Both the position numbers and the translations under genes were made by a program. A model generated the notes under the pieces. The model had not been told where the DNA came from and did no database searches. It worked only from the letters and a program-made list of their open reading frames with translations. This document shows positions 28,792-54,206 of a stretch of DNA of 64,000 bases, piece by piece. Source of the DNA: Auricularia sp. M13 (lineage: Eukaryota > Basidiomycota > Agaricomycetes > Auriculariales > Auriculariaceae). The stretch covers positions 3,658,001 through 3,722,000 of the forward strand of contig CM073198.1 in the NCBI GenBank assembly GCA_037042915.1, read 5' to 3'. Within the stretch, counting starts at the first letter, position 1. The number at the start of each line of letters is the position of its first letter.

Positions 28792-28804
28792 GGGGGTAGA
28801 GAAA

Positions 28805-29027
28805 GTGACGCGCAGAGACGCGCAGAGACGCGCAGAGCATATCTCCCTCAAATCTTTACATAATCACACGATCCTTACCTCAATAGATAGCCAATATTTT
28901 TCCAAATATTATAGTGATTTTAGCTGAATTTTAAAGGCCCTAAATCCGGCAATGTTCGTTAATATGTCTAAATGTGCGCGTCACTCTTGCGCGTCACCGC
29001 GCATCTCCCTGCGCGTCATGCGCGTCT
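28805..29027 (+). repeat. Left terminal GCGCGTC/GACGCGC arrays
   Basis: Outer cluster 28805-28837 has three to four units of GAGACGCGCA after GTGACGCGC. An inner cluster at 28974-29027 has four units of GCGCGTCAC/GCGCGTCATGC in the other orientation. The spacing of about 150 bp is similar to that of the right end clusters. Confidence 0.8.
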
Positions 29028-29489
29028 GCCCCTGGGAGGTATGTAACTACATGAAATCATATTATAAGCCTGTAAGATGGCTTACTACACCAGAATTGCC
29101 TCTTGGACAGTCACTGTCACACGTGAGTTGAATGCAAATGCACAATCTCAACTTCGAGCTCAGACCTTCTGGCTAACCTGCATCCAGACGCATACAATGA
29201 GCTATGAAGGATGAGTTCCTAAGTGAGGCTTGTCATGCATTGGGAGGGAAGTGGTCTTGCAGTGTTTCTGTCCTATGAATGGCTGACCTTGAATCTGAGT
29301 ATAATTTCGAAGTCAGCTGTTTGCTCCTTGTCTTCCTACCACCACCATCGCTTCCCTGCTTCCACTCTACCTCAAACTTGTCACCCCTCAGGGTAAAATC
29401 ACTTCGTGTGGTTTATCCTTAGTTGCTCTCATTTGAGAACGATTAAAAATCTTACTGTTCTCATTTGAGAGCGGTTAATCCTACACCTT

Positions 29490-30660
29490 GTGGACCGGCT
29501 TCTGATTCGTGGCGCTCTGTGCTCATCCCAGATTTTGGTGATAGAGTACTATATTCCTGCTCCTGACTTTGCCTGTGTCTCTGTGCTGGGGACAGGTGGT
29601 AACCTTTGCAGCGCCTTGTTTAGGATACTACTGCGTATACTGGCAACAATCCTTGTCTGCACTCTCTGTTGGGCTCTGGTCTTGTGTCTCTGCTCTGTTA
29701 GCTTCTGTGTCTAGTATCTGGATACTGCTGTCTTTACTTTGTGGTTATGCTCGCTCCAGGAACCTGCTAATCGCTTTATTGATTCTGGTAATTATCTCCC
29801 TGTGGAGGTATCTATTAATCTGACCATATTATAGGTTCTGTGATGTTTCTCTTCCAAAAGTTCTTCCCAAAAGCCAGATCTGAGCCACGTGGTAAGTAAA
29901 ATCATGGACCCTTTGCTTTATATCTCAAACTTTTCCAGCTCCCATCACACCGGCGCCCAATCACTACGTCAACATAATTGATTCTGTTGGTAAGAGGTGG
30001 TCACCACCTTCTGAAATATATCATTCTTACACAAACAAGGGTCCTTAATTGCACAGCTTCCAGAGCAACAAGGTACGGAAATCGTGACATTTTCCCCAAG
30101 GTTATCTAAAGAGTCTCTAGTTATTCAGTTCCTCAAAACCAAAAGCCACTCCTTTACAGGCCTCTCATCTTGTAGGCTACATCAATGCCATTCTTACAGA
30201 TGTATTAATGCTTGCATAACAGCTATAGCAACCTACCCATCAGGTGGATTTGTGATGTGTGTCAATGCACTGGGTATGCCTCATTACTTCCTTTCAGACT
30301 CTTATTCATCTGTATCTTTGCAGGGCACTCCTTGGCTGTTCTCCCTCTCCTCGATGGTATATTTCATTAAGTTTTGAGTTGACTTTCGATTCACTTATGT
30401 GTATAATGTAGTGGATCCGCTGCGTTCCCATGTACTCTCCCAATCCAAGAGCAAGGCACCCTCTGTATTATCTGGAAATCATCATGGGTCCCATAGTAAG
30501 ATAGAATCCACTAGCATGTCTAATTCTAATGTCTACTTCCAGACTCCAAAGTGCCAATATCCAACAACATCTCCATTGTAGTTGGCCATCCACCGGCGCA
30601 AACACAAACTTTGGTTGCACCTTCACACGTCCATCCTGGTGCACCATTACCAGGCAAGAG
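29490..30660 (+). CDS. Possible intron-rich small-exon gene in the left arm, unknown
   Basis: Exact exons cannot be fixed. There is a hydrophobic stretch (29569-29823, VGLWSCVSALLASVSSIWIL and LLIALLILVIISLW) suggesting two membrane spans. After it, several 40-90 bp blocks are bounded by donor/acceptor-like sequences (GTAAGT near 29892, GTAAGA near 29990, and TTTCCAG, TTACAG, TTTGCAG, TTCCAG acceptors). The composition is AT-rich, as in the gene at 50029-52767. No domain recognised. Confidence 0.3.
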
Positions 30661-31211
30661 GATTAATAATAGATGATAATATGGCACACATGCGCTCAAT
30701 CAGACCAGGTTAAGGAGTGTATATAGTTCTGTTCAAGTTCTTGTATAGTGCCACTGTGATTGAAAATTTTCCCTGCGATTGATCATACACACTCTGTGTT
30801 TACAATCATGCAGTCAGCTACCTACGTATCGCTGTGATCAATGGGCACTGCAAGCATAAAGTACTGACCAGAAACTTCAAAGTCTCAGTGATTAATGAAT
30901 AATCACTGCGTCTGGCATGGACTATCCACTGTGAACGGATGTCTGATTGAATACCTCACTCCAGAATAATCAGAGACCTTCAATGATCAATCTTCACCAA
31001 AATAAATCATAGGATGGGAAAGTTCGAGCGTCAATGATTGATGCTGACGTCATGACTGATCACAGCTTAGAGCATGGACTATCCACTATGAATACGCATT
31101 GATTGAAACACGGTCTCCAAATTAATCACAGTGGTATTATTAATCATGACTATACAGAGCAAAGTACAAAACCACCACCAAAAGGATCAAACACAAACAA
31201 CAAACACTAAG
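30661..31211. other. AT-rich inner end of the left arm with TGATCA/TGATTAAT words
   Basis: Scattered TGATCA and related words (for example near 30778, 30834, 30983 and 31057) and a repeated phrase GCATGGACTATCCACT (near 30916 and 31072). No gene is supported. Confidence 0.5.
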
Positions 31212-33420
31212 CTACACGCGGACCCTTCTTGGTCTTCTTCGAATCAAACACGACTGGCGTTCGTGTTGCACGCCCCCGAGTACGCGTGCTTGGCGCATCA
31301 CCAGCGTCGACAACAGTCTTGGCTCTCTTTGCAGCAGGCGCCGTGCTCACATTGTTGTCAGGTTTCCTTGGAAGAGAATGTCATTAGAATATTGGTACTC
31401 AAGGATGACATGCAACTTACTTGCGCTTGGTCCCCGCCTTCGCGACTGCCGCCACCGTTGCTCCGGATTGAGGCGCAGCGTCAGCATTAGAGTCTGCAGC
31501 CGACAGTGACTGCGCCGCCAGACCAGCCTGTTTTGCACCACGTCCGGAGCGCTGTGCCTGGGCTCTACCATGACCACGACCACGACCACGACCTGCAGGC
31601 TGGCCACGGTCCGGTGCATCGTCGTCAGCTTCCTGCGCCGCTGCTCCGTCCATCGGTGGCTCAGGGGTTGCAACACTAGGAACAGGCGTCATCGCCTTTG
31701 CAGCTGCGGCGTCTTTGGCAGCATCATCGCTCCGCTCAAGAGCAGGCTGCGATGGAGCTGGGGTAGGTACTGGAACGGTCTGTTGAGGTGGCTGGCCACC
31801 ACCAGCGGCTGCGTCACCCGTGCCCTCCACGGTCTGTGATCCGCTGGTGGACTGGTGGGCTGCAGTGGCCCCGGCCTTCTGTGCCGCTTTCCTACGTCAC
31901 TGGGTCAATCACCGCTCCGGTTTTTTTATTTTAATGAAGGACGCACTGGGCCTCGCGCTTGCGCAGTTTCTTCTGAAACCTGTTGGCTCGGAAGGTGTCC
32001 ATCGTGCGCGTAATGGCCGCTTGATGGTACCCAAATCGCAAGGGCTCCTCGACCTTGCTCCTGTGCAGCTGGCACTTGCGAAGGTGCTCGTATAAGGCCA
32101 AGAATTGCTGCTCTGGCATTTCCTCTGGGTTGCGCAGCACAACACCCTCGGGAACACGGGAAGGCGTCACGAACTCGTTTGGATTTTGCGAAAGCTCGTC
32201 CCAGAATGCCTTCGGGTCGTCCAGGGGCACATCGGTTGAAACTGTTGACTGTCAATTCAAGGAAGTACAGATAATCAGAGTTTGACGTACGAAAGAACAT
32301 GACCTCAAGATGCTTCTTCAGCGCCTGCCGCAACTTGAGCAACTCAGGTCCCGCCGGGCTGTCCGATATCGGCGGCAGTGGTAAGCAGAAATTTTCTGCG
32401 AAGGGGTTAAGCAAATGAATGCATGAAGATGCCCAGGCGGCATACCAGCGACGGTGTCGTCTTCATACGTTGACCAGATCTTCGCAACAGAAGTTTTATA
32501 CTCGTCAATGTCGTACCAACGTTGGATGTCGGGGTGTGAGGCCCAGAAATTCCTACTCAAATGAGTAAGAGTCACACAGAGTAAAACCCGCCATACCTAA
32601 AGCGATGCACGGCCTTGTCCTCCTCGCCAACGTAAAAGCCCTGCACAATGCACACAAACGTTTTTCCAAGGCCTCGTTCCTTAATCTTATCCTCGACGCG
32701 CTCCTGGAACCAGCCCGCAAAGCCCCTCTGCCGACTGCAGGCAAAGTCAGAAGAACACCGGCAGCATGAGCCAAACGCACTCTTGTACGACAGATGCAAG
32801 CGCAGTACGCTCCTCCTCCTCCTCCTTCCGGATCTTAGCCAATTTCTCCCACTTGGTGCGCTCGGCCTCTGGGATAGACTCGAAGAGACGCTTCAGCGTG
32901 CGCTTCCTCTCGCCGATATATTCAGGCGGAAGCTTCTTCGGAGCACCACTGACGCCGAGTGCAGCAAGAGTTTCACGGTGGAGGTGCTTCTTGTTCTCGA
33001 CAACCGCGGCCCAAAGCTCTGACGGCGTAGTCGACCGGAGAGGACTATCATCACTAGCCCCGCCGCGCTCCTCGAACTTGGCCAGCACAGCAAGTTTCTT
33101 CCCGTCCGTGTGGTTTCGCAACCATCGCTCCGACGCCTGAATACAGTCAGCTCAGAGTAAGAAGTTTGCTGTCTACTTGCCTTGAGCAGCTCATCAAAAG
33201 TCCACAGTGATCCATCCTCGTTGCGCGGGTTGCCATCATAGTCAGGCTGGGAGAAGGGCTGGAGCTTATAGTCCTCCATATAGTCCCTCAGCAGTCGGAA
33301 GAACTCCCCCTCGCGGCGGACACCTTTCTGCCTGTCTATAGCGTGAGCGTCGACCAGCGGCCTAAGCTTCGGTTCGGCCCATTCGACAAACGCCTGCGTA
33401 AGCTGTAGAGTGCGGCCCAT
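31212..33420 (-). CDS. Basidiomycete-expanded protein with HMG-like segment
   Basis: A multi-exon minus-strand gene starting at ATG 33420 and ending at TAG 31212. Verified junctions include GTGCGT...ACGTAG near 31950-31890 and GTAAGT...TTCCAAG near 31415-31365, both keeping phase. The N-terminal part has WAEPKLRPLVDAHAID. A central segment, PSELWAAVVENKKHLHRETL followed by GERKRTLKRLFESIPEAERT, has the spacing of an HMG-box-like helical module. The C-terminus is Ala/Pro/Gln-rich with an RGRGRGHGR patch and ends in a basic tail (KKTKKGPRVA) suited to nuclear localisation or DNA binding. I know this type only as an uncharacterised family expanded in Agaricomycetes. It is cargo of the giant element; function unknown. 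Confidence 0.6.
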
Positions 33421-33473
33421 GGTTAGCGAGAAAGAGAGGGAAAGACGTGAACCACGTACTGCTGCAGCCGCCT

Positions 33474-33480
33474 CTTATAG
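33474..33480 (-). promoter_or_regulatory. TATA box of the HMG-like gene
   Basis: CTATAAG on the minus strand, about 55 bp before the ATG at 33420. Confidence 0.5.
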
Positions 33481-33654
33481 TGGTGGGTGACCACGGCTTG
33501 TTCGCCACTGACCACCGGTCAATGCGAGACCACGCCCGCGCGCACCACCGGCCTTAGCCGCCAATAAGCTCATCCCATGAAGCTCCCATTTCGCAAGAAA
33601 GGCGCGGCGCGAAGGCGCAAGGAGAGGAGAGAGCGATATTTGAGGCATGTAGGA

Positions 33655-34306
33655 TCTTTTCTGCGATGCGCACTCTGACACTGTTCGAAGAGATCACGAC
33701 GCGAACACCGCGCGGCAGCGAGAATACGCACGGGTTAAGCGGTCACAGCATGATGACAACCGCGGCGACGCCCCGCTTGTTTTCGACAGCAAGGCGGCAG
33801 ACTACATCGAGCGGGCTCAGAGGCTAGGAAGTCTGTACGAGAGCTGGCAGGAGCTGTCGCTCGACGAGCGCATGCTCATTGCGGTGTTCTACATATCGGT
33901 CAGACGAGCTGCATTTGGTTTGCTTGGCCGGGGAATTGAACTCACTGTGCACCCCGACCACATGCGCAACCCGCCTCGACCACTCGTATATCAAGTATAT
34001 CGGACAATCATGACTGCAAGAGCGCCGACCATCAGCGTGTTTCAAGAATCAACAATTGACACATTACTGACCGATCTTTTGGAGGCGGGATGGATAACCC
34101 AGACCAACAGCGGGTCTGCATACCTCGAAGATGGTTCGTATGGTCCAACGGGCGACGCAGAGTTTCTCCAACTTGCTCTTCCATGGACCGACGCTCGCGA
34201 CCTTCTTCTGAGCGGCGCTGGAGTTTTGGGGGATGTAGTTAGAGCGGTCACCAACGCAGAACGGCCAGGCGCACCATGGACGGTGGTAGATGCGCGCAAC
34301 ACGTAG
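33655..34306 (+). CDS. Uncharacterised gene divergent to the HMG-like gene
   Basis: An open frame runs from just after a TAG at about 33652 to a TAG at 34306. It has no ATG before 33872, so either that ATG is the start (145 residues) or an upstream exon splices in after CATGTAG. The sequence looks coding: SKAADYIERAQRLGSLYESW, then LSLDERMLIAVFYISVRRAA, then TISVFQESTIDTLLTDLL and WTDARDLLLSGAGVLGDVV. No known domain recognised. Confidence 0.5.
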
Positions 34307-36501
34307 CTGGACGCAGAGACTTGCATCACGCTGTATATATTAGCAGCTGCCTCGTAATTAGACACCCAACGTTGCTCGCAGAGAAATGAAGACGAACTGA
34401 CCTTGAGAAATCATGCTGTGGAGCAAGTGTGTTGGCGGCATCATGGCAATCGATGCGGAGGCCTGCTGTCGTGGGGAAGAGAGAGAGCATCGGGCCAACT
34501 CCGCACATCACACCCGTCTTCAGTGGGCCGTGTGCAACGCCTTTGCTCAGATGCGCTCTCTACCGTGAGGTCCTGCGAAGTGGGAATTGGTCTTTGCGAA
34601 TTTATCTGGCCTTCCTGGCCGTCAGACGCGAGCACGAAGAGCACTGCAGTCTGTTCGTTGGATCCAGCCAGCCTGGCACATGATCGCGACTGCAAGCACC
34701 CTTTGTGGCCGCGCCTATGAGAACGAGGCCTGTCATTGGCGGCGAACGCCTTGCTTGGCACCTGCTGTGAGTGCGACCTCAGAGAAAGAGTCTGTGTCGG
34801 AGTCGACATGCTGCTGCCCGACCCGCTGTTTGCTCCACTCCTCCGCTCGAAGACGACGGTGGATATGCCCAACTAGGCCTGGGAAACGGGCCAAGGGTCC
34901 GGCTGAAGACACCGACGTAGCTTAAATGGAGGCCCTTGCATCATTGAGGCAAAAATGAGAATGCCTCACTAGGCTTGATTGTATGGGTAACATGAATAAA
35001 ATGAATCAATTTGATAGTCAAATGGCACGCGCATACTGGCAATGGACATCAACAATAGCACACAGCGTGTCAAGCTTTTCTCGGCGGCACGTCCATCGCC
35101 GTGCGTGCGGAGCTCGTCGACGCAGTCGGCCTGCAGCTTCGCACGCACTGGGAAGTGCCTTGTCATCTACATCAACGGGTACGATTCATCCTCCCCGAGG
35201 CATGCCTCGTTGCGCGCCACGTACTCCTGCGCCCAGGCCACGAGCAGGGTTTGGTCGCCCGAAGGGCATTATGACGAACTGCGATCTGGCGTGTGCGGCT
35301 CACATCGCGATTCAGTCGCACGCGCGTGTCAGACTACGTGTAAAATGCACAGCAGAACGCGCACCGCGAGCCTGCAAGCGTGCGTGAGTCGAGCTCAGCC
35401 ATGGTGCCAACCAGCCGCGGACGCACCTCGCATCCTGCGCACTCCCCGTGTTTCTGTGCGCGCGTGGGTGTTGCGCCCAACGTCGCAGGGTGCGATCCTG
35501 TGCGCGGAATCGGGGATCGATGAGCCGTTGGTCGTGCGTGCCGTTGGATGCCCTCCGAGTGCACATATCGACTCTGCGCCTTGCGCGTCGATAGGGCGCC
35601 GTTGCTGCGCGTGGGCAGCGGACGCGGGACCCATGACCGTGCTGAATTCGCCCGCGCAAGCTGCGATTCCCGTTGGGGCCGTCTGCGCCAGGTCGGCCGT
35701 CTCGAGCAGTCGCGCCCTCGATCTTCGGCACTTCACATCCGGCTTGGGACGTTTGCGGGTGATTGGAATAAGGTCTCTGAGCGTAAATATTAGCTTGAAA
35801 TAGCGGGATGCGCAGCCGAACAAGAGAGATGTTCGTTTCGCTCCCCACGGCACACACACCGAGTCGGCGGCCTCGGCGCCTACTCGGGGCACATTTACAC
35901 GCCGGGAGGTGGTGCAAGAACCCCCGGCGTACTCACCGTGCAAGTTATGGCGCGGGTTTACGCCGTTTGCGCGAAACGAGCGCCGATTTCGGACTGGGGG
36001 TGGACCGGTCGACTGACCAGAGCTGGCAACCGCAGAGCGCCACTCGGGCGCGCCGTAAAACGCATTTGGTGGCATCCTTTAAATGTATACATCGCCCTCC
36101 AACCGAGTCTGCGCAGCACGGAGGTGTTGTTGGGCCGATTGCGAGTCCGTGGTAGTGACGGCATGCAAGGCAGCCGCACTCGATCCGCGTCTTGCTCCCT
36201 CATTTCGACGATGGGAGGTACTTGGAATGCGTACCGTACACCTCTACCAGTCGTGACTTTGCATGGCGGGACGTGGCCGTCGAGATCGCGAGCAATCTTT
36301 TGGTGAAGCCGAAAACAAGCTGCTGATAGCGTCAGATGCTTTGCGCACACGATTGAACGGGTGGAGGCATAGCACACGCACCCGATTGTTGCCCTCGAAT
36401 ATAATTTTAGCGTTAGCGCTGCCTGTGAGTGCCAGCGCGAGCATCGTCCGAATTGGTCTGACCAGAATGAAGCATAAGCAAACGACGCAGGTAGGACAAC
36501 G
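34307..36501. other. 2.2 kb without a supported gene
   Basis: Both strands have GC-rich overlapping open frames (for example 35312-35917 minus and 35042-35803 plus), but none shows motifs, splice structure or protein-like composition that would favour one frame. Confidence 0.4.
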
Positions 36502-38197
36502 TTACAATGCATACAATTCGATGGCCTTGATGTTGTCAGGGATGCCGGGCATGTTCTGCACAGAGCCGCCGTTGGCGATGATGAGGTTCTTCATGTGGTC
36601 GTCACTCAGCCGGCGGTCGACAAGCTCGCGCAGCAGCCATGGGCACACCACCTGGAACTCGCCCGCCAGCAGCGGTGCGTGCATTTGTTGCTCGTGTACG
36701 GCTCGAAGCACTAGTTGAAGCCCAGGATCTGGCTCGTCGACACCGTCGGCATCGGCGCCAACAACAGCGAATTGTGCAGGCCCGTGCGGGCGATCTGCTC
36801 CTTCAGGCTCGCCCAGTCCCAGAGGTCGGTCGGCATGACGCCCCAGAGGTCGTACTGCAGCCTGCCCTGCGCGGGCGAGCCGGCCCGCGTCTCGTACGGG
36901 CCCTCGCGCTCAGCGAGCTCGACGCCTTGAGCGCGGCGCGGTAGATGGTCTCGAAGATCTGGAGGTTGAGCTTGCGCGCCTCGGGGCTGTCGAACGGCAG
37001 GCGCAGGATCATGAACGCGTCCGCGAGACCCTGCACGCCGATGCCGATGGGCCGGTGGCGCATGTTGCTGCGGCGCGCCTCGGGCACGGGGTAGTAGTTC
37101 ACGTCGATGATCTTGTTCAGGTTGCGCGCGACGACCTTGGCGACGTCGTGCAGCTTCTGGAAGTCGTACGATTTCTTGTCGGCCGTCACGAACGACGGCA
37201 GCGCGATCGATGCCAAGTTGCACACCGCGACCTCGTCCGGCGCAGAGTAGTCAACGATCTCGGTGCACAGGTTCGACGACTTGATCGTGCCGAGGTTCTG
37301 CTGGTTGGACTTGGCTGCGCAGAGCGTCAGTATGAGAGATATGGGAAGGGAAAGGACTGACCGTTGCACGCATCCTTGTACAACATGAACGGCCCGCCAG
37401 TCTCGATCTGCGCCTCCAGGATGGTGTACCACAGCTTCTGCGCAGGGATAGTCTTGCGCGCGCGGCCTTCCTTCTCGTAGCGTTCATACAGCGCCTCGAA
37501 CTCGGCGCTGTGAACCTCGTGAAGACCGGGCGCCTCGTTCGGGCAGAACAGCGACCATTCGCCGTTTGCCTCGACACGCTTCATGCTAAACGACACGTCA
37601 GGGAAAGTCGACGCAAGCAAGCGGAAGAAGCACGCACAAAATATCGGGAATCCAGAGCGCATAGAAGAGGTCGCGCGGGCGGACCTCTTCCTTACCGTGG
37701 TTCATGCGCAGGTCGAGGAAGTCGAACACGTCCGCATGCCACGGCTCGATGTAAATCGCGAACGCGCCGGGGCGCTTGTTACCGCAACGCGCCGTCGAGT
37801 CGTACGCACGCAGCATGGGCACGATACCATTGCTGTGGCCGTTCGTGCCCGCGATGTACGAGCCCTTCGCGCGAATGCAGTGGATGTTGAGGCCGATGCC
37901 GCCGGCCGTCTTGCTAATCATCGCGCAAGTCTTGAGCGCGTCGTAGATGCCCTCGATCGAGTCCTCCTTCATCGTGACGAGGAAGCAGCTGCTGAGCTGC
38001 GGATGCGGCGTGCCGGCGTTGAAGAGCGTCGGCGAGGCGTGCGTGAAGTAGCGCTCCGAAGGTTGTACGTCTCGATCGCGCGCTCGACGTCCGCGCCGTG
38101 GATGCCCACCGCGACGTGCATGAGCATGTGCTGCGGCCGCTCGGCGATGCGGCCGTTTATGCGCAGGAGATACGAGCGCTCAAGCGTCTTGAAGCCT
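36502..38197 (-). pseudogene. Ribonucleotide reductase large subunit (RNR1) gene fragment, decayed
   Basis: The minus strand encodes clear class I RNR large-subunit motifs in order: [116 protein letters not shown], and [10 protein letters not shown]. The functional protein is about 800-900 residues; this copy lacks the N-terminal ATP cone and the C-terminal tail. It has a 2-nt deletion near 38057, a 4-nt deletion near 36925, an in-frame TAG just after ILGFN at 36711, and further scrambling. Two ordinary introns remain (about 37610-37660 and 37320-37365), so it was copied from genomic DNA and not from mRNA. It was probably captured by the giant element. Confidence 0.9.
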
Positions 38198-38939
38198 GGC
38201 CATCACCGGTGCACGCATCCTTGTACAACATTCCAGGCTGGACGTCAGACCGCCCATCGCGACACGTGCATGGCAAACCCTTGACTTCGCGCGCTGGACT
38301 GTGGTCGGCCTGTGCCTCTGCGCGTCGGCGGCCGATGCACATTGCAGCGCTGCGCGTTGATATGTACAGTGAGCACATCAATTATGCGCGCTGCGACGAC
38401 GCACTCACCATGACTTTGTCTGGCAGTGACTTTGCGCTGCACCCCGCGAACACCGCGCCTTGCCTCGGGGCTGCGCGTGCAGGCCGTTCGGTCGGTTCGT
38501 GCGAATGAATCGACGTATGGTGCAGCAGTATCTAGTGGTAAATTCAGTCATTGCGAAACTTTGCGCTGGATGAGGACTGACTGCAGTTGCCCAGAGCTGC
38601 GCTGCGGCCAGGCGGTTACTGCAGGAGCAGGCTTCCACGCTAAGGGCAAGCGTGAGCCGGGCAGTCTCGGCGCTGGAGAGTATGGGTTCCGGGACAAGCT
38701 GCGGCCGAAGCCGCTGCTCTCTCTCATGTTTGCTACACCTCCACGTAGGCTCTGGCCATTTTATCACCTATCCCGAAGGTAGACTCAGCAGTTCAATATA
38801 ATGGCTAGCATCTAACGTTCTCCGTTTGGTATTTTATAGCTTTATATCGACAGATGAACGACTTCGCAAAAGCGACGTGCGGGCTGCAATTCCGGGATGA
38901 CGACCCGCAAGTACTTGCACAACGAGGCCGCCAATATGT

Positions 38940-39160
38940 GCGCAAGTGCGCCGCCCAGATTCGCACGAGGAGGCTGCACACATTCGTGTGACTAGACCGC
39001 CAGCATTCGCACGACGACGACACCAGATTTCGCACGACACCCTCTGCATTCGCACGATGATGCAGCCTGCTTTCCGCGCGGCTCGGTTGCCTTCATTCGC
39101 GCGGCTTGGCCGCCAGTCATTGCGCGTGACCGCACTGTCCGCCTTCGCGTGCGCCAAGGT
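38940..39160 (+). repeat. Degenerate minisatellite with ATTCGCACGA core
   Basis: About seven units of 22-33 bp start with ATTCGCACGA or variants (ATTCGTGTGA, ATTTCGCACGA, ATTCGCGCGG). They lie just beyond the 3' end of the KDZ gene and may be subterminal repeats of a KDZ element. Confidence 0.6.
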
Positions 39161-39333
39161 CATCGCTTGTTACCCAGTCGTCGCGTACAGTAAGAAATGG
39201 AGTACGTTGCACAATTTCTTTTTATCTCGCGTGTTACCCTAACGTTTTGAACAGCAAGTATAGATACAAAGCCCCGGACTAGAAGTACGACCACTCGAAC
39301 TCAATACCAGCATCTAAGGTTGTTAGCTTCGTA

Positions 39334-43260: not shown

Positions 43261-43313
43261 CGGAACTTTGGCGCAGCAAAGAGTGACCATTGCCCTCGAG
43301 CACCATCTCAGTC

Positions 43314-44669
43314 ATGTACCCTGGATTTCGTGGGCTATACCAGGCACCGGCACGCCGTATCCATCCTTACATTCCTTCTGTCCGCTGCCCGACCTGTCGC
43401 GCAGAGCTCTGGCCGCAGGCTCGCGCTCACGGTGACCCTGAATATATTGCACGTTTTTTGCCTGAACGATCCAGCCTTGAGACTTACGCTTTCGCAGTGC
43501 GAACTTGGTGGACATGGCCACGTTGCCGTCTTTCACAACGGTCGGGTAGAGTGGACTGGGGCAAGCACGGACATCATCGCCCACTGCGTGCATCCTGGCT
43601 GCACCGTCAAGACCTCTGGTGACTGCGACCTTAATCTCTGCAGGACGCACTGCCTGGAGCTGCCGATTCTTTGTGGCTGCTCATCGCATGACACGACTCG
43701 GCGCCGGCGCCGTGGCGAGGACAACGTTCGAGACCTCCAGGAAATGGATATTCTCGTTGACCAATATCCCGAGGTCTTGAAGAAAGTTGCTCTGAGTCTG
43801 GAGTTCACAGATAGGGTGAGTACGACTCTCAACCAGTATCAGAGGTTTGGCTGACACAAAGAGCACAGAACGTGATCTTCGAAGCTACGGCACCTTGCGT
43901 CTACAACACAGTTAGGCTCAGCACGCTTCCTGCTGATGTCCAGCACGCCCTCCATATCTACGAGGTCTACCCCAACTCATACACAGTTAAGAACCGTGCG
44001 GCGAGCTGGGTGCCCTACAATGACAGCAAGGCCGTGCGCATTCCACCGAACCATCGTCGCCTTGAGTTCCGTGCCCTCAGCGTCGAGGGGGCAACCAAGC
44101 CGTTCCCACTAGGCTTCTATGTGGACATGAGCAACGGCCTGGAGAACTATCAGAGCTTCAGGGAGGATGGCGCTTCCAGGAAAGCTGCTTGGCGCGACGC
44201 CTTCCCCGACTGCGACGAAGACGATTTCGACGAGACCGCAATCGACTTGGTGCGGCAAGCCTGGCTGAAGGCACCCCAAGAACTGCACCACCGCTTCCTC
44301 GAGTATGGCAGGACCGACAAAGGACGCTGGGCCGAATTTGCGATGCAGGTCCAGTCGCTGCCAGAGGGTCCGTTCGACTACTTCGACGACGACGACTACA
44401 TTGCGCAGCCCAAGAACGTTGAAGGCTCCTCGTCACCAGCTGCAGAAGCAGCACGTCGTCGCGCTGCAGGCAAACGTCGTCGTGCTAGCCCATCGGAGGC
44501 GGTGGAGGCACAGCGCTCAGTCAAGAAGCGCAAGGTTGATGCGGTTGCGCCTGCAACGGTCCCGCGGCGACGCTGGCTGACCGGTCCTGCCGCCGAAGAA
44601 GCAGGCCCATCTCGTGCACGCAGCGCTCCTGCAGGTCGTATTCAGGGCAACAGCGACGAAGATGAGTAG
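43314..44669 (+). CDS. Cysteine-cluster nuclear protein divergent from the KDZ gene
   Basis: The second exon, 43869-44669, is certain (intron 43816-43868, donor GTGAGT, branch CTGAC). The 5' structure is not: the TATA-like box favours ATG 43314 (MYPGFRGLY, then VRCPTCRAE), but a clean splice into the downstream frame was not found. The first part has VFHNGRVEWTG and a compact Cys/His cluster HPGCTVKTSGDCDLNLCRTH followed by CGCSSH, plausibly zinc-binding. The C-terminal part is a globular region (AAWRDAFPDCDEDDFDETAI), an acidic patch and strong nuclear localisation signals (GKRRRASPSE, KKRKVD). Similar Cys-cluster proteins occur beside KDZ transposases. Function unknown. Confidence 0.6.
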
Positions 44670-44816
44670 GATATTGATGATGATTTGAGTACGGACTGCG
44701 AAGTATCGAATATGGTAGCAGAAACGATCTAATATATTGGATGATATTTAATGAATCTGCAGCGCGCAAATGTTAGTATGGAGCAAGGATGACAGAGCGG
44801 GACAATGACAAACCAA
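44670..44816. other. Convergent gene ends
   Basis: Short AT-rich 3' flanks of the cysteine-cluster gene and the dioxygenase gene. Confidence 0.4.
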
Positions 44817-46932
44817 TCACAGCAACACGTCGTCAAGCCCTTCGCTATCGATAACAACCGGGAAGTATTCGTCAACCCGAGCTGCATGTGTCCTCCCATC
44901 GCGTCCTTCCGTCGTCATCGAGTACATGGTGGCTTGCGAAAACCACACCACGCTGCCGCGGCCGCCCGGTCTGGACAGCGGGATCTCCTTGGAATTCTCC
45001 TTCGTCGGGCGCTGGCCCTTCTTGCACTTCACAATGCGGATGTTGAAGTGTAGTAGCAGCGCTGACGGATACAGAACAAAGGCGCCTCTCGGACACTGCA
45101 AGATGATGCCCAGCTCCCAAAGCACGATCCAGGACCATTCGTCCTCTCCTACAAGCCCTGCACCTTCTATCAGTGATCTGTATCCAGGAGCGCCACAGCA
45201 AGGTAAGCGCACCATCCTCCCAGTAAGCCAAGAGCGCGCAGAACAGTGCTGCGACGTTTCGCGAGTCAGAATGTGGTGCAGTCACGCAGCGTTCGACGCC
45301 GTCTCCAGGTGATGGAACGTTGACACAGCAGTTCCAGAATAGCCCAAAGTGAGGCTTGAGGGGAACCACGCCCGGCGAAGATCTTGCCTGATGCCATGCG
45401 GCGTTTTCTTTCATGCGCTTGGCCATGTTTGGGAAGCGATGCTCCACGATGTTCGTAAGAACAGACATGAAGCTGCATCAGCAACAAGGATATCTCAGTG
45501 ATACGCAAGACAGCGTACGTGTAACGTGCCAGTGGACCGTCGCTGCGCAGAAGCCAATCGACGTTCTTGCGGTACTTGCGATGGAAAGCTGTTTCAAACG
45601 GTTCCTAGATGTGCTTGAGTGTTAAATGGTCAAGCACGGCAAATTACGCACAGCGCTGTACTGCCGGTGCACGCCCATGCATCCAAAGAAATGGTCTCCA
45701 CGAAGATTAGCAACACGGTCCCTTGCGGGGATGGGGCAGTGTTGAGCAAAAAGTTGTAGGTCGACGGCGAGCTTGTGAATGAGGCGCTCGCCAGGCTTGA
45801 TGTCCGCGACAACGGTTGAGCGAAACGCAACACATCGGCCGGCACGGTCACAGATGGCGATGTCGGCATCGTTGTCGGCATCATGGGGCACGATGAGAAA
45901 ATTAGCTAGCATATCGATGAGTCCAGGAGTGCCGTAAACAGCGCGGACTGCGTCCCGTTTCCAGCGAGGGACACTACCGCAGTTGGCTGATTTCGCGACG
46001 TTGAGATGTTGCAAATCCGGGAGGGCACGGACGGCAGCAGGCGAATTGGGCCGTGGTGTCGGCGTAAGCACAACAGTCTGCCGTTGCGCATTCCGCTTGG
46101 CCGTCCTGGCAGCGTCGATGGGGCGCGGATTGCGGTGCTTCCGGACGGTGTTGGGCTCTGGAAGAGGATGAAGCTGTATTCTCGGCGCAGCAGCGGCTTT
46201 GGCTGCGTCGTATGTGAGAGAGGAGCGAGTGAAGTGCACCGGGAAGAAGTCGAAGTCATCCAATACAGACCGTGGCTGGGCGAGCCGCAGCGCAGCGCCT
46301 TTGCGGTCGACAGTGCGCTGCTCGTAGACGATATGTGGCGGACAGAGCTCGGCGACGCGGTTCCATCGTGAAGTGCGAGCACCATCATGAGCCGTAGACT
46401 TTGCGCGTTTTGTATCGGATTCCACCCTTTCAGACTGGGAAAGGTATTTGCGCTTCACTCCGGCCACCTGTAGCCCATTGTGGGACGATCTCTGAGCCAT
46501 ACTGGTCGAGGTTGGCCCTTGCTGAGCTGCACGAGCGCACGAACGGGTGTAGTAGCGGCGTAACACGCGATTAGGCACTGAGAGCAGGGGATCGGGGTTC
46601 AGGTCGTTGTCGTTCACGCTCAGGCCGGTCCGAGTGATCAGATCGACGATGCATAGGTCAGGCAGCGTGATTAAGACGTCGTCCGCGCGAGACGCGAAGA
46701 CCGGTATGCTGAAGCAATTTTAGCGCACATCTGAGGGCGCAAATGCGCAGCCTTACGTTTCAGAAACCAGCTGCTCTGCAGAGTGCCAGGCAGCAGCGTA
46801 TTCCTCAGGCGACGCGTCCAAGTCCTGACTGACAGACGTGGCCGAAGAAACCGCGGCACTCGTCACGTTAGGAGCCAGCAAGCCTAGCACATGCTCAGGA
46901 GCACGCGCAGGGTCGACTTCCATGACTGCCAT
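44817..46932 (-). CDS. TET/JBP-like 2-oxoglutarate/Fe(II) dioxygenase
   Basis: Five exons in phase: 46932-46757, 46708-45652, 45604-45519, 45472-45213 and 45163-44817, with introns of 46-49 bp and GTAAGG, GTGCGT, GTACGC and GTGCGC donors. The N-terminal half is a variable basic region (GVKRKYLSQSE, DTKRAKS). The catalytic half shows a double-stranded beta-helix signature: NVPSPGD, then TAPHSDSRNVAAL with the HxD iron ligands, then WIVLWELGIILQCPRGAF and VLYPSALLLHFN with the distal His. This matches fungal TET/JBP-type proteins, which oxidise 5-methylcytosine or related bases and which are known to have expanded with KDZ transposons. Substrate specificity cannot be read from the sequence. Its neighbour is the KDZ gene and both lie in the giant element, which suggests a role in modifying transposon or target DNA. 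Confidence 0.7.
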
Positions 46933-47401
46933 CCAGGACCGGGATGTTACTGGCCAGCAGGTGGCCAGAGCACGGTGGCGGTCGAATGACGGCTGAGGCT
47001 GCCGAGTCCGAGTCGGACTTCTAACGCGCTGCAGCACGTTGCTCCGCTCTCCCACTCCCGCTCGACGCATCCTTTTCCTGCGCAGCCAGCAACCTCTCGC
47101 GCAGCATCGCGCGGCGCTATTAAAGGTCTGCGCCCAACGCGGCGCGGTCGACACTCTACGCATCCACGGCCACCACGTGCATAACAGCAGCCACCGAGTC
47201 CGGCGACCAACATGGGTCCGTGACGACGTGTATGTTAACCAGCCGCTGCCGACGACCGAATTGGATTACCCTGGAGACCCTACTGCTTGTCCGCGCAACA
47301 AAATTTGAAGAACCAGTGCGCAGTGCTGTTTTGCAAACGCGTGCCGACGAGCTGACTAGACTGATTACCTTCAGCGTACACCACACTGACCAGTATGGCA
47401 G
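46933..47401. other. Divergent intergenic region
   Basis: Between the dioxygenase gene and the next plus-strand frame; no motif recognised. Confidence 0.35.
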
Positions 47402-48644
47402 TATGGCCATCAAGGTCACTATCGAGGAGTTGCGGCGTGTGGTGTCTCGCGAGGAGCTCAACGTCGCGGCGGTCATCAAGCTCGCCGACTCATGGCGCAA
47501 CGCCAACCAGCTGCGCGACCCGCGCTCGTGCTTGAGCGATTTTCCGGTCTTCCAAGCCCGGAAAGAAGGGTTTTGCCCAGCAGCATGCGAAAGCTGCGCA
47601 AGAAGAATGATGACGGGGTCTTCATGCCGCTCGCACGACCCGGTTATGTGCTAGAAGACACGCTCAGCTGCTCCACCGTCATGAGCATCGAGACGGTGAT
47701 ACTCATGCCCCTGCCCAACGAGAGCAGCTCCCCGCTCGTGCTTCCTTCCCCGCACAGACACTACCGATCCAGCACCCGCAGCGCTGCAAGGGCACCGACT
47801 CAGTCATCTACGCGTGATTCGCGACCAAACACGACGCCGCGCGACATGGAGCCGTTTGCCAACAGCGGGCTGCGGTCGCGAGCAGGGTTTGGTACGCTGG
47901 GCTGCCTGCCGGCGTGCCAAGCAGCGCCTCGATTCGGTTCTCGTGCTCTACGACGGCAGACGCACGTAGCACAGTCCGCCCACAGACTGTCGCTGCAGCT
48001 CGCGGACGAGGGCCGCTCGCAAAGGCCATACATAATCGCGTTTCTCCGCGCCCTCACGCTGTGCCCACACCATGCTCCTCGACGCAGTCAAGATGCCGCG
48101 GCTCGAGATGCTGTTACCTGACTTCAACGTGGCCGCGGTACCATCCATCCGCAGCTGCAACTCGACGGCGTCCGAGGGCTCAGTGCGCACCGAACGCGAC
48201 AACCACGCTGTCCCGATCATCCACGCGCCGGCGGCGGCAAGATGGCGCGGCCTGACGACGGGCAGCATGAGCCCGTTGATAATCGGCACGGGCAGCGAGT
48301 TTCTCGAGGCCGTCAAGCAGCTCGTGCCGCAGCTCCCCAGACCCCCGAGCGTCATGCGCGCAAAGACGCTGCCGTTTATCGTCGAGACGCCCGCGCCCGT
48401 GACAGGCGAGTCTACGGATGATCTGCAGCGCAAGCTCTCGAAGTGCAAACTCGCGCTGCTGCCCCTTGCCCGCAACGCTGCAGCAGGCGTTGCCGCCTCA
48501 ACAGCTACAGCCGCCCGTGACAACACGGGCTACGTCTTCGTCATACCGCTGCCTGAGCGGTGTGTTGCGCCAGACGTCCATGCGCTCGTCCATCATGCGC
48601 CACACCCGCGCCGACTGAACAGTCACGCTCCTCTCGCTTACTGA
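47402..48644 (+). CDS. Uncharacterised gene in several frames, possibly decayed
   Basis: Protein-like stretches lie in three plus-strand frames: MAIKVTIEELRRVVSREELN from 47402, then RKLRKKNDDGVFMPLARPGY (about 47590-47650), then SMSPLIIGTGSEFLEAVKQL and LPRPPSVMRAKTLPFIVETP (48270-48390), ending at 48644. I could not find splice pairs that keep phase throughout, so it is either an intron-containing gene with unusual junctions or a frameshifted relic. Confidence 0.35.
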
Positions 48645-48878
48645 GCACAAGGCCGACACTCGGCCGCCTCGCACGCCGCGCGTGCGACTGCTTAACAGCG
48701 TGTGGCGGGACGTGGCCGTTTGACCGCCCATTGGCACATTCTTCGTCATTGCTCGTTTTGCAAGCCCCACGCCTTGTATATTCCTGTAGAGATTGCCTGG
48801 ATGCGGCACACTTTACGAGTTTTGTCATCATATCGCCAAGGAAAGAGCGCTTTATTATAATATTGCCGAGGAAGCGCG

Positions 48879-48886
48879 CATAAAAG
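48879..48886 (+). promoter_or_regulatory. TATA-like box of a truncated small gene
   Basis: CATAAAAG lies 16 bp before ATG 48895. The spacing is short for a fungal start, so the real start may be later. Confidence 0.3.
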
Positions 48887-48894
48887 GGAGAGCT

Positions 48895-49200
48895 ATGACC
48901 ACGGTGTTCGTGTGCAACCACGAGAGCGGACTTCAAACCGCTTCTTGCCCTTCCCCTTACCCCCGCTCGCAAGTCAACCTTCCAAAGACGCTCACAGCCG
49001 CTCTGCTCTACCATTGCACAGAAGATGTCTTGGGCTGCCCGCAAGGAACACTCGAGCTCGTAATGTCGCTTTGCCCAACCCTTCTGCCGGCGGTGGTACG
49101 TACGCCCTTTCAAATCTTGGTAGCCTGTGCTCACTGCTAGCTTCTGACGCATGACACCCATAGTGCCTTTTCCCTACATTTTCCGAAGTTGAAGACGATG
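48895..49200 (+). CDS. 5' fragment of a small gene at the GC/AT junction
   Basis: ATG 48895 opens MTTVFVCNHESGLQTASCPS and continues to a GTACGT donor at 49096. An acceptor CCCATAG at 49163 would add a few codons (VPFPYIF) before a stop. Composition turns AT-rich just after it, so the gene may have lost its 3' part there. No domain recognised. Confidence 0.35.
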
Positions 49201-49234
49201 ACTGTCGGGACAGACCCGAAATTGTCAGTTGGTG

Positions 49235-49900
49235 TTGGTCTCTGATCAACGACAAGTGTGCATTCAAATCACAGCCTCTGCAGCCGTTCATTATCCAGGA
49301 AGGGCGTCTCTGATCAGTAGCCCTTGTAACTTGCGACGTACGGTGCGCTCAATTAGCTCTGATCAGTTGTCTCTCGCTGGATTAATCTTCGGTCAGCCAA
49401 GGACGTCGATTCAGCGCTCTGATCAGTAGTTCTCAGGCCTTTGATCACAGCCATCTTCATTGTGAGTGATATTGTTTGATCAATTCGAGTGCAAACCTCT
49501 GATCAGACAGTTTCGTAGAGGCTATAGGCTCTCAAAATTCACCGCGGCGCTCTGTGATAAATCCCCCGTCTGCTATTAATCATTAGATACACATCCCGGC
49601 ATTGTAAGTGGTATGATTATCGCGACAGCGGCTCTCTGATCAGACCTGGTTTCATAGGCTATAGTCTCTGAATTTACTCTCGATGCTTCTGGGATCAATG
49701 CCGTTCTCAGGAATCAATCACACGTGCAACACACAGGCAAGTAATTATGAATTGTGTAATTCATCTGGCCGTAGCAATAGCATGAGATATGATTTATTCG
49801 GACGCGTTGCGATTGAGCGGAATAGCCTACTATCAATCAGACGTCACCAGAGCTTGTATATACGACCGCTTGTACGCCTTAACTAGCTCTGATCAATCGT
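49235..49900. repeat. Cluster of CTCTGATCA motifs
   Basis: At least nine TGATCA sites, most within CTCTGATCAG, lie about 20-250 bp apart upstream of the gene at 50029. The motif is self-complementary, and similar TGATCA words occur at the inner end of the left arm (30.7-31.1 kb). Confidence 0.75.
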
Positions 49901-50028
49901 ATATGTACACTTTTGTCTGCTGTTATTAATCCTCTCTCCTGGTACGGGTGCCTGGTGCCAAATGGTCGGCCAACTCCTGCTGGCTGGACTCGTCCTCACA
50001 TCTCCTATATTATGCGTGTCTGCGTGAC

Positions 50029-52767
50029 ATGGACTACCTCTCACCACTCCTTGCGCTTTCTCCACCTGAGAGTCCCCTCTCAGTGCTTTTGAAGCTCTTC
50101 CAACTGCGCTCTGAAGTTCTTCAGAGTCCACTTCTGCCTTTATTACTCGCCAGCGTGATGGCCTTAGGCAAACACTTGTTGAGCATTCCACTGGTCAGGC
50201 TATCAAAGACAGAGCTCCAGGTGGCATGGACAGTCCATGGGTATGTTGAGTAATCTATTTTCCTTTAGGAGGTACTCATTATTTTGTAGTCATGGCTTTA
50301 CGATCTAGCAAACTACGAGCGTGCCAAGTTTCCTAAGACGTCAGGTCTAGCTGCATACTTTACAGTACAATCCCTGGTCTTTGCGCTTTGCGGTGACATT
50401 GTCAATCTCAGTGGTCTTACCTACAAGTCCTCTTATCGGTTTCAAAACGATGTGGACGGCTTCTTTACTCGCTTCCAAGGCAACATCACCAGCTGGTTCC
50501 ATGAGGCCCTTACCTGGAATTCACCTTCATCCTGCGCAGTCAATCAACATCCATTCCCAGAACGCTGTTCTACAACCCATCGCATCATCGTTGAACTGCC
50601 ACATATACTTATTCTGGATCTCGAAGAGCCAAACACAAAGCATGTTTGGTACTTCAGTACTCAAATCTACCCTTTGGGAGAGGATGTTGGTGTCTCCCAT
50701 GGGCTTGTCTACGACTTGATTGGATATCTTTCGGGTTCTGGTGACTCTGCAGCTCTCCACTATACTGCGACCTTTTCTTCACCTTCTGGTTCGGCCTATT
50801 ACTATGACAGCATGAGGAATAATGGGGATTCTGTTATCCTCAGCTCCATTCTAGATGACAACCACCTCTTGCATGCCTCAGAAGATCACAGAATTTGGTC
50901 AGCAGTATATCACCTTCGAGGTGGCAAATCAGCCAGAGACTATTTCGCCGACCACCAGTCACAGTATGTCTTGCGCGAATTTGGCATACATCTTTCTCGC
51001 TCAGATGCATCATCTCATACTGCTACGCTGGACCCCGACATCTGGAATCAGCCTTTACATGATCCCCAGTTGGATTGCGTTTATGGACATCGAAAGGTTG
51101 AACAAACCTCGATTACTGTTCGTAGCAGCGCGCTACCCACAAAGCATGTTCACTTCGACGACTTGCACTGTCGCTGTGGAGCTCGTCAAACTTTGGCGAA
51201 GGATGGCCCCTTGGTTCACTGCATTACATGCAAGCGTCCCTCTCACTTGGCTTGTCAACTCGGTGGATATGTTACGATCCTTGGGAAGGAGCAGGAGTTC
51301 AGATGCCACAAGTGCCTCAGTACTACTCACCGCCATACAGAAAGTTTGGCCAAGTGAGTGTCTTTACTGAATCATGAAATCCATCTGACTATAATGATCA
51401 GAGAACTCAAGAAGGCTATTCCATTGATGAAGGACTTGCCACTCATTCAGCGTCTTCAGTATGTGTTATAGTATTTCATTTTCTAAGTACTAAGCATATG
51501 ATAGCCCAGGAATGGCCATCCTTGCAGCATATACAGTAGAAAGCGGGCTCAGCAAATACCACTATCCTGCTCGCCTGATATCCAAGGGAAAAGATGCAGC
51601 ACATCGCTCAATATGGCATGTTGTATGGTACCCATCCTCCAGATTTGAACCTCCTGGGTTCTTCCCCCCCTCGATTGTCCTAGAAGATCACATTGTGGAC
51701 TGCCTATTTGGAAGACAGGCTGAGAGACGTCAGATTCGCGTGAGTAAATATTTTCTATACTATTTCTCCACTAACAAGAATTGCCATAGCTTGGTCGATG
51801 GCTCCCTGCCAGCGAGGTGGAGGAAAGCAAACCTGATCAGAATTACCTTCGTCACCCACCCTCTCAGGAGATCAAGGATCTTCTGGAGCCCCACAGCGCT
51901 ATTTTGCATGCTCTGTGCCATGGTGCATCTCAGGCTGAGAAATCGCTTCTCAAGTCTGCTCTACCTCCAGTGGCTTCATATCAGGCCAAGCACCGTGGCA
52001 AGCTTCCAGACTATCCCTCTTATGGCACTTTGACTTCTATGGATGCGGCCCAGATCATGCATTGGCTGCGGCTCAATGTGTCTGACAATCCTGCTATCTT
52101 CATGAAGGCGCCACTCTTCCACGCGATTAATCTGGTGCTTGCTTCACGCAATAGTCTATCAGTGGATGAGGCCTGGGACTCATATCAGATCCACGACAAA
52201 GGATTGGGGCGGCAGCAGAGTATTGATCTCGACGTGTTTGCTTTGGCTATTCTTGAACATCTAATGCTGGACCAGACAGCAGAACTTGGACTGTTTGCTT
52301 GTTCTCAGTGGGGGCGCGATGCTGGACATCACCAGCATCACTGGAACCCATATCTCTATGGTCCAACTGAGGGTAGAGAAGAAGAGGCTGGCTGGGATAG
52401 CCTGTCAACAGAGTATGAGCTCGCTATGACAGTAGGTCTGAATAACTGCGATGAGTGGTAAATCTGATTTATTTTATAATTTAGAATGGGCCAAATTACA
52501 AGGAGGACTCTCCAAAATGTGATATGACTCCTGACATAACCCCTTTGGAACGCCAAATAACTCTCAAACGAAAGCAGTAAGTCATAATCACTCAAATGAC
52601 ACAACAAGGAACTAAATCATCAAAGGGAGTTCGATGCAGAGATGGAAGAGGAAGATCGGATGCAGGAGGCAAAGGCAAACATGGATGAGGCAAAGGAACC
52701 AGTCAAGAAGATGCCTAGAGTTTCTAGCATCCAAACACGTGCTACTAGAAGGAAATCTCGCAAATGA
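50029..52767 (+). CDS. Protein with USP-like His box, PHD finger and basic tail
   Basis: Exons: 50029-50240, 50290-51353, then short exons and 51793 to about 52461, ending near 52767. Introns of 45-60 bp have GTATGT or GTGAGT donors. The second exon has QIYPLGEDVGVSHGLVYDLI and then ALHYTATFSSPSGSAYYYDS, resembling the His box of ubiquitin-specific proteases; the Cys box is not visible in the part I can reconstruct, so activity is doubtful. A C4HC3 PHD finger follows: CRCGARQ, CITCKRPSHLAC, FRCHKC. The rest is helical (GLGRQQSIDLDVFALAILEH) with an acidic coiled coil (FDAEMEEEDRMQEAKANMD) and a basic C-terminus (RATRRKSRK). It suggests a chromatin-binding, ubiquitin-related protein carried by the element. 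I do not know this exact architecture. Confidence 0.6.
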
Positions 52768-53400
52768 TGCATCCCCTGCTGGCTCTAGACACTATTTCCA
52801 TTTCAGATTCCACCTCCAAACACTAGTACATATCACCAGTTGATGAGTTAAATCTCCGTCTGATATTTATACATTTAATAGTTTTAACTCATATACGCGT
52901 CTCTTGCGCGTCACTGCGCGTCACTCTGAGCGACTTGGTCAGAGTGACGCGCAACAGACGCGTCTGCACAAATGCAACCCGTTCTGCTCAGAATCTCAAG
53001 GAATCAACAAAATGTGTGTAGAAACAACTTGAAATGCCATATGGAAGAGTATAGACATAATGATATCGCCAGGGTGGTGGTAACTGTATTTACGACTGAC
53101 TTTGAGATTTTGGACTGAGTCTCTAGGTGAATTCACCCTCTCACAAACTAGGGTAATTGTGCCAAATATGTGTACTGTGTAAATGGATTGTCACATGTGG
53201 ATAGATTGACCCAGTAGTGACTGGTGGCAGTGTGTAGAAAGCTATTATTTACGAGTGTCACATATTGAGTATGCATTGTTTATTTGAGCAATAATTTCAA
53301 TCGAAATAACACGAAAAAGAGTATAGACTATGTCTTACCTTCCTTACACATGGCATTTGCTCCAAATGTCTGTATTTATTACAATCTGCAATGACATGCA
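52768..53400. other. AT-rich right arm without a gene
   Basis: Downstream of the PHD gene. It contains the inner GCGCGTC cluster (52895-52966, both orientations around a CAGAGTGACGCG palindromic section) and otherwise AT-rich unannotated sequence. Confidence 0.5.
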
Positions 53401-53401
53401 G

Positions 53402-53607
53402 GGGACGCGCAAGAGACGCGCAAGCCTTTTGGTACTATTACAACTTTGCCTGGTTAACTAAGACCCTGGGCTGATGGCACCTGCCCAATTGTTTTGGAGG
53501 CCTCAGTGGATATGGTCCATGTTATCAGACCTCACAAGGGTTAGTATTGGGTACAAAATGGTGCTGCGCGTCTCGCGCGTCACTGCGCGTCACTTGCGCG
53601 TCACTTT
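53402..53607 (-). repeat. Right terminal GACGCGC arrays
   Basis: Clusters at 53402-53426 and 53563-53604. On the minus strand the end reads AAAGTGACGCGCA followed by AGTGACGCGC and GAGACGCGC units, the inverse of the left end. Confidence 0.8.
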
Positions 53608-54206
53608 ATATAGACCGCAGCAGACCCACGCAGGCCAGTGTCCGAGTCAAGCGCCGGGTCAGACGTCGCGCTCGCCGTCTCCGTCTCCTCAGGCAGCTCC
53701 AGGTCAACGCTCGACCCTCCCAGTGAGTCCAGCGCAGCAAACGTCCGGCGGGCGACAGGGGCCGGCGACCCGCGCACGCTCTGCGACGACCACATGGAGC
53801 CTTCGACGTCCGAGTCCATCTCCGCGTCCGCGCAGTCCGCGGCCTTGCGCTCCGCCGCGCGCAGGTGGCGCATGTACTCCGTCAAGTTGTCGAACCGGTC
53901 CGGGTTCAAGTTGGCAGGCTGAGACTGCGACTGCGACGACTTGGTGCGCGCGCGGTTGAGCTTCGCGTTCGCGTCCGCCACGGTCGGCGTGCGGCCCGCA
54001 GAGTCCAAGGGGTCAGCGGCATCGACAGACGGAGGCGTAGCGGGCGGCGTGTTGTAGGCAGGCGGGGACGCAGGCACCGGCGGCGTCGCGCTCGACACCA
54101 CGACGTTCGGCGCGCCATTAAAGTTGGCACTGGCAGACATCACCGAGCCGCCGTCCAGCATGGCTCGCCACTCCGCGTCGGGCGCGCGCTGCTCGTCGCG
54201 TGACAT
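53601..54206 (-). pseudogene. 5' part of the gene split by the giant element
   Basis: The frame from ATG 54206 (MSRDEQRAPDAEWRAMLDG) runs through Pro/Ser/Thr-rich and acidic segments, including RFDNLTEYMRHLRAAERKAA, to GLRGSAA at the 11-bp repeat. The last four codons (VYIK) and the TGA stop are element sequence: the TGA is part of the terminal GTGACGCGC motif. The original frame continues at 28791-28691. The loss is only the last 20-30 residues, so the truncated protein could still function. No domain recognised; no promoter assigned. Confidence 0.7.
53616..53626. repeat. Putative target-site duplication of the giant element, right
   Basis: CGCAGCAGACC, identical to 28781-28791. Confidence 0.7.

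Follow-up and report, generated by a model that had tools for sequence, protein, structure and literature searches.

The locus considered here raises a simple question: does it hold one unusually large transposon, or more than one of ordinary kind? It lies in a 64,000-nucleotide window from the genome of Auricularia sp. M13 (52.1 Mb, 14 contigs, written below as C1, C2 and so on), which corresponds to C6:3658001-3722000; positions given without a contig are those of the window. An earlier sequence-only reading had described a single 24.8-kb cargo-carrying transposon at this place. The interval 28,792-53,617 is instead a nest of two DNA transposons, an outer element represented by 28792-30641 and 49951-53617, and an inner element occupying 30642-49950. 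It is very probable that both are cut-and-paste transposons and that the inner one carries host-gene passengers picked up at the DNA level. The tempting giant-transposon reading is corrected in this way to an ordinary nest, whose history is readable from two independent empty sites, one for the outer and one for the inner insertion. The DNA searches of the host genome used window positions 28500-43000 and 43000-53900 as queries, and statements about copies elsewhere concern the best candidate matches.

The outer boundaries are marked by CGCAGCAGACC, which occurs exactly twice on the plus strand of the window (at 28781 and 53616) and not at all on its minus strand. This 11-bp repeat, previously taken as the flanking duplication, is indeed present at both ends, but the true target-site duplication (TSD) is 9 bp, CAGCAGACC, at 28783-28791 and 53618-53626. 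The outer element starts with GGGGGTAGAG and ends with TATATAGACCG, the last CG being its own 3' end, and the repeat appears two bases longer because this terminal CG chance-matches the left flank. The inverted terminal arrays reported earlier are confirmed. There is one copy of AAAGTGACGCGCA at each end of the interval, inverted relative to each other, and GTGACGCGC matches the window nine times against 1.32 +/- 1.04 expected (0 of 100 shuffles reach nine), all nine matches lying no more than about 210 bp from the left end or 715 bp from the right end. Two joined GTGACGCGC units, searched as a direct pattern, gave no match. The host minus-strand frame is rejoined on deletion, as had been proposed: when the flanks are joined through a single repeat copy, an open frame of 236 codons runs through GSAAKAPATAMEEEG. 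A paralogous uninterrupted site at C6:3641342-3641842, on the same contig and about 45 kb from the insertion, has a single repeat copy and the same reading frame. It agrees with the joined flanks at 95.6% over 2,042 columns, the similarity on the left side extending for only about 250 bp. Thus the anticipated empty site reading through one copy exists, albeit as a paralogue.

Copies with the same termini and different flanks, which the sequence-only reading had proposed as a check, are found on C5, C9 and C7, together with two older, shorter copies on C9 (110.7-115.0 kb) and C3. Each has a different 9-bp TSD: CAGCAGACC in the window, CAGTCAGCG on C5, CGTCCTCCG and ATCCGCGGC at the longer C9 copy and on C7, and GGCGAGGAA and AGCAAACGC at the two older copies on C9 and C3, so that the length is 9 bp in all six copies having both ends. 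A further copy on C4 is without its left 500 bp. The C9 and C7 copies measure 7,794 and 7,785 bp, both without the inner 19.3 kb, and in the C5 copy (5,508 bp in total) the left 1.85 kb joins the right 3.67 kb directly. In the window, the left part (28792-30641, plus strand) is 98-100% identical to the C5, C9 and C7 copies; it begins with GGGGGTAGAG, continues with inverted subterminal repeats of the GTGACGCGC type and has a copy of the inner TSD at its right edge. The right part (49951-53617, plus strand) ends in CACTTTATATAGACCG and includes the 3' portion of the outer gene. Over 5,506 aligned bases the window copy shows 4 mismatches to that on C5, along with four short gaps; its identity to the C9 and C7 copies is 99.1% and 99.0%. 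A segment of 2,266 bp that is present in C9 and C7, and that contains most of the predicted transposase core, is missing from both the window and C5. The full form of the family is 7.8 kb and the window copy is a 5.5-kb deletion derivative. Since the window and C5 have the deletion in common, the derivative must have changed place one or more times since the deletion arose.

The inner element, a Kyakuja-type KDZ transposon of 19,309 bp (30642-49950; CACCATTACC...GGTACGGGTG), has ends and a TSD of its own. Alignment of the junctions places CCTGGTG at 30635-30641 and again at 49951-49957, and the C5 outer copy, without the inner insertion, has CCTGGTG once. An 8-bp parse of this TSD is also possible because the inner element begins with C. 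Self-comparison reveals an imperfect terminal inverted repeat (TIR) of 77 bp and 73% identity, with arms at 30642-30718 and 49874-49950. Two relatives are found elsewhere in the genome, C9:48422-65176 (16,755 bp, TSD AAGCCGG) and C4:2921156-2976504 (whose matching ends lie about 55.3 kb apart; TSD CCAAATA), the interior of the latter having been read in part. All three family members examined have 5'-CA..TG-3' termini and an exact 7-bp TSD. The KDZ transposase noticed earlier in the interval is supported by Pfam matches to PF18758 (KDZ, 1.5e-26) and PF18803 (CxC2, 6.4e-34). The Kyakuja group of the KDZ superfamily, exemplified by Kyakuja-1_LB and -2_LB, is described with 5'-CA..TG-3' termini and a 7-bp TSD in the available parts of the published account (Kojima 2025, PMC12730594), and the KDZ domain, the 7-bp TSD and the CA..TG termini of the present sequence identify the inner element as Kyakuja-type. 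The two published Laccaria bicolor families are said in the same part of that account to have no TIRs (PMC12730594), in contrast to the 77-bp TIR found here. We read this as variation and not as exclusion from Kyakuja, because the statement describes only two families. KDZ matches number 149 in the genome, several of them falling at one locus. The C4 relative also encloses another KDZ transposase match, which is probably further nesting.

Among its conserved core genes the inner element harbours partial, frame-broken host-gene copies together with scraps of repeats, and RNR1 illustrates these passengers best. An internal fragment of 1.68 kb (36520-38196, minus strand) corresponds to the host gene at C3:1862691-1864391, which reaches beyond the fragment in either direction and contains the two RNR domains. 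The fragment differs from the C3 gene at 77 of 1,677 aligned bases and has five deletions (4, 12, 4, 3 and 1 bp), three of them frame-shifting and none in the two predicted introns. As the introns are retained without gaps and the deletions lie elsewhere, the copy is a DNA-level one with a broken frame. Eight bp from the fragment lies a 27-bp piece (38205-38231, minus strand) sharing 25 of its 27 bases with an internal stretch of RNR1, compared with a best score of 19 in 34 control scans, and we read it as templated filler. A P4-type ATPase gene on C7 is represented on the plus strand by pieces of 74-88% identity within 47192-48093, at 47192-47390, 47399-47784, 47832-47879 and 47997-48093, the last two out of order. 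The C7 gene itself matches Pfam Cation_ATPase above the cut-off (1.3e-6), and E1-E2_ATPase (8.8e-5) and PhoLip_ATPase_N (0.008) below theirs. At 48073-48686 (plus strand) there are parts, 75-80% identical, of an unnamed gene on C6 (4111654-4112369).

The C9 relative has a load of its own. Two 1.5-kb stretches of its non-core interior were tested, and the first is 84% identical to a C2 myosin motor gene (Pfam Myosin_head, 5.2e-21) and 81% identical to a place on C8. The second matches C9:2005309-2006156, which has no Pfam name, at 78-85%, and C4:684689 at 71%; the same C9 locus is matched at 73% by the window piece 47922-47999. A partial host-gene copy within transposon ends, with a longer parent elsewhere, is the arrangement that defines Pack-type elements, and it is found for RNR1 here and for myosin in the sister element. 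These observations suggest that a fungal Kyakuja has captured gene sequence as Pack-type elements do. The direction of copying, from host gene to element, is clearest for RNR1 and is probably the same for the other fragments. At C3:1815358-1817000, some 47 kb away from RNR1 itself, a second RNR1-like locus is 78% identical to the captured fragment.

Three parts of the proposed history can be followed directly: an outer DNA transposon with a 9-bp TSD inserted into the host reading frame, a 19.3-kb Kyakuja-type element with its own ends and TSD lies inside it, and this inner element contains sharp-edged fragments of host genes. The outer derivative would have relied for its movement on transposase acting in trans and encoded by full-length copies like those on C4, C7 and C9, and the Kyakuja's own transposase would have inserted that element once the C5 and window outer copies had separated. 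The fragments would have entered the Kyakuja as DNA-level passengers, most likely through template switching during the repair of breaks or excision gaps. This form of repair is proposed because of the sharp junctions, the 27-bp templated filler and the scrambled P4-ATPase pieces. The filler and the scrambled pieces offer a direct handle on how DNA transposons acquire genes.

Several points weigh against this history and lend themselves to other explanations. Dispersed-repeat scraps abut the RNR1 fragment on both sides, at 36519/36520 and 38232, and other mobile sequence may have been its captor. RNR1 and the other fragments might then have arrived in a further nested element or by segmental insertion, perhaps with the flanking repeats. 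This is the strongest of the rival explanations, though still an unlikely one. No direct repeat of at least 10 bp connects the sides of the RNR1 block, a weak inverted pair at 35193/38470 is absent from the related repeats, and the second Kyakuja also has a gene fragment in a comparable region. Capture linked to repair is consistent with the templated filler and with the scrambled order of the pieces. The particular case of a third element nested around RNR1 was considered and rejected, neither a TSD nor a shared terminal repeat of such an element being found there.

Another difficulty concerns the order of the two insertions. The start of the inner TSD lies 1 bp from the point at which the outer 2,266-bp deletion is joined (window 30634-30642, compared with C5), a strange coincidence for which simple sequential insertion offers no explanation. 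Precise excision at C5 or a common fragile point may have played a part; the C5 site might in principle be what a precise excision left behind and not a pre-insertion site. The empty site for the outer insertion, moreover, is not allelic; the gene models throughout are mechanical predictions, and the transposon history is read from the sequence of assembled contigs. A different order of events would have the Kyakuja enter an outer copy elsewhere, with the 24.8-kb composite then transposed to its present place by transposase acting in trans. The perfect outer TSD agrees with this, and the three near-identical full-length outer copies on C4, C7 and C9 could supply the transposase. However, no second composite or donor was seen among the best genome DNA matches, and the simpler order, in which the Kyakuja inserted into an outer copy already in place, requires no 24.8-kb transposition. 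Transposition of the composite is accordingly judged quite improbable.

The single mobile unit of the sequence-only reading, with the outer ends and all of the inner genes belonging together, fares worse still. It is true that the whole interval lies between the outer ends and their perfect 9-bp TSD, but on C5, C9 and C7 the same ends surround 5.5-7.8 kb from which the inner genes are absent. The inner part, for its share, is bounded by separate ends and a 7-bp TSD, with relatives elsewhere that have TSDs of their own, and among the best genome DNA matches the composite is found only in the window. The earlier reading had itself held that other copies with ends elsewhere would speak against it, and for the KDZ part such copies exist. 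A single 24.8-kb element as the origin of the unit is refuted by these separate outer and inner copies, and we regard the possibility as scarcely credible. An assembly artefact or chimera can be set aside just as firmly: the evidence is assembled sequence, but misassembly would not be expected to place perfect TSDs of 9 and 7 bp exactly where the boundaries are predicted, and to do so independently in other copies.

With the nest of an outer element and a Kyakuja as the preferred reading, the published systems provide a measure of what is ordinary and what is new. Starship-type giant elements use a tyrosine recombinase captain, whereas the TIRs, TSDs and KDZ transposase here point to a different class. 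Helitrons are rolling-circle elements without TSD-flanked cut-and-paste ends, in contrast to the inner element with its TSDs and KDZ transposase. Helitrons of Pleurotus and other fungi are nonetheless relevant as DNA transposons with captured gene fragments, according to the sections of the literature available (PMC4289320). Active fungal KDZ transposons, KDZ1-KDZ3, are described in Cryptococcus, in the portion of the report to hand, with lengths of about 9-11 kb, CxC1-type transposases and TIRs of 139-241 bp; the TSD is 8 bp long in KDZ1 and 4-8 bp in KDZ2 and KDZ3, and that portion mentions no host-gene fragments in them, in contrast to the inner element here (PMC12810828). As the accessible part of their description has it, Pack-TYPE elements and Pack-MULEs are non-autonomous plant DNA transposons with host-gene fragments (PMC8903248). 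The inner element resembles these in holding fragments from several sources, introns included. It differs from them, as so described, in encoding a predicted KDZ transposase and in residing in a fungus, and would not share their non-autonomy. The host-gene fragments also set it apart from the Kyakuja families in so far as the account of these extends. Host-gene-fragment capture by KDZ elements, save the acquisition of TET/JBP, is not reported in the portions of the open-access PMC literature that were searched, which included PMC12730594, PMC12810828, PMC6431247, PMC4289320, PMC8903248 and PMC6710886. Nested transposons are ordinary; a Kyakuja with host-gene fragments would be a new form of a familiar kind of element. 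The wider interest lies in a fungal KDZ element which still encodes its predicted transposase and has several host-gene fragments in the Pack-type manner. If this is general, Kyakuja elements would offer mushrooms a means of shuffling exons.

A bolder version of this reading stands, in our estimate, at an even chance. The Kyakuja elements here would be autonomous Pack-type shufflers with variable stretches, one separating gene A from the transposase and another lying between gene C and the right end. These stretches would repeatedly take up pieces of housekeeping genes (RNR1, P4-ATPase, myosin), introns included, by template-switching repair, each member having a different chimeric load. The outer element, in turn, may be an undescribed DDE lineage with its transposase fused to a deubiquitinase-like and PHD-like region.

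The transposase and genes A, B and C are the element's own, whilst the gene fragments are passengers with no expected function. Core gene A (31417-33474, minus strand, predicted multi-exon) has no assigned function and no Pfam match, and is conserved in the C9 and C4 relatives. The transposase gene, with its CxC2 cysteine cluster, is likewise predicted to be multi-exon (39334-43018, minus strand). Core gene B (43203-44666, plus strand) has no named function, its C-terminal 266 residues being 75% identical in the C9 relative, which keeps genes A and B and the transposase. Predicted gene C (44820-46719, minus strand) occurs at six loci in the genome, including the C4 relative and four further places. 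It shows an HxD...H pattern like that of 2OG-Fe(II) dioxygenases, as read by eye only, and had no match in Pfam (including Tet_JBP) or in the Protein Data Bank (PDB), nor profile similarity to the genome's Tet_JBP proteins. Across the six loci, PHxD..N and EWSWLVIWELGII.QCPRGSF.YPSALLFHFN motifs are strongly conserved without a Pfam match. Gene C is thus a candidate for an unnamed dioxygenase-like family. TET+ Kyakuja families have an AG-type TET/JBP gene, according to the part of the account available (PMC12730594), and the window differs from families so described in having no Pfam Tet_JBP match and, by motif only, another dioxygenase-like gene instead. A TET/JBP gene was looked for in the inner element and not found, none of the 19 genomic matches to Tet_JBP (PF12851) falling within the window and gene C being unmatched. 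Beside the RNR1 fragment, 35249-36519 is diverged repeat sequence with about 66-78% identity to several dispersed loci. On its other side, the 195 bp at 38232-38426 are 77% identical to a dispersed sequence present at C10:2885516-2888709 and C1:8873383-8876576, two copies that are 99% identical to each other over more than 3 kb.

The affiliation of the outer element is less clear than that of the inner one. A 179-residue stretch of its predicted transposase core gave eight matches in a genome search: it is identical in C4, C7 and C9, has 39% identity at C8, C11 and C2, and shows weak similarity at one C6 place, which accounts for two of the eight. The 3' part of the gene (predicted exons at about 49944-52431, within the plus-strand right part) includes a weak PHD-like finger. 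Searched against Pfam, the predicted protein matched no family and gave only weak zinc-finger matches, the best at E 0.13 and 0.96; one frame of the element gave a weak GCM-type zinc finger (E 0.72) and one frame of the downstream exons a PHD match (E 0.045). The downstream exons also contain what we take, by motif only, to be a deubiquitinase-like (USP-like) Cys box, NSCWLD, and an HYT motif. A phmmer search of this C-terminal region against PDB returned unrelated weak matches only (best E 0.11) and offered no support.

Mutator-like elements (MULEs) have TSDs of 8-11 bp, a range that includes the 9 bp of the outer family, and the spacing of acidic residues and of C..H in the outer transposase resembles theirs by eye. 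The outer transposase did not match the Pfam MULE model at E up to 10, and a PF10551 search of the genome found six other places, the outer copies not being among them. Comparison of the outer protein with MULE profiles by hhalign gave no match but was underpowered, since two MULE groups of this genome, used as the positive control, likewise failed to match each other. MULE membership of the outer element is not established: its TSD length is compatible, but no match to the Pfam MULE model was obtained. The near-identical full-length copies and the moved deletion derivative make the outer family a candidate for present-day activity. About 340 bp of the outer element (29280-29617) recur at 84-90% identity on C8, C2, C11, C4, C7 and C3. 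Two of these places, on C2 and C11, lie near outer-like transposases which are only 39% identical in protein, the 340-bp stretch being far better conserved there than the transposase.

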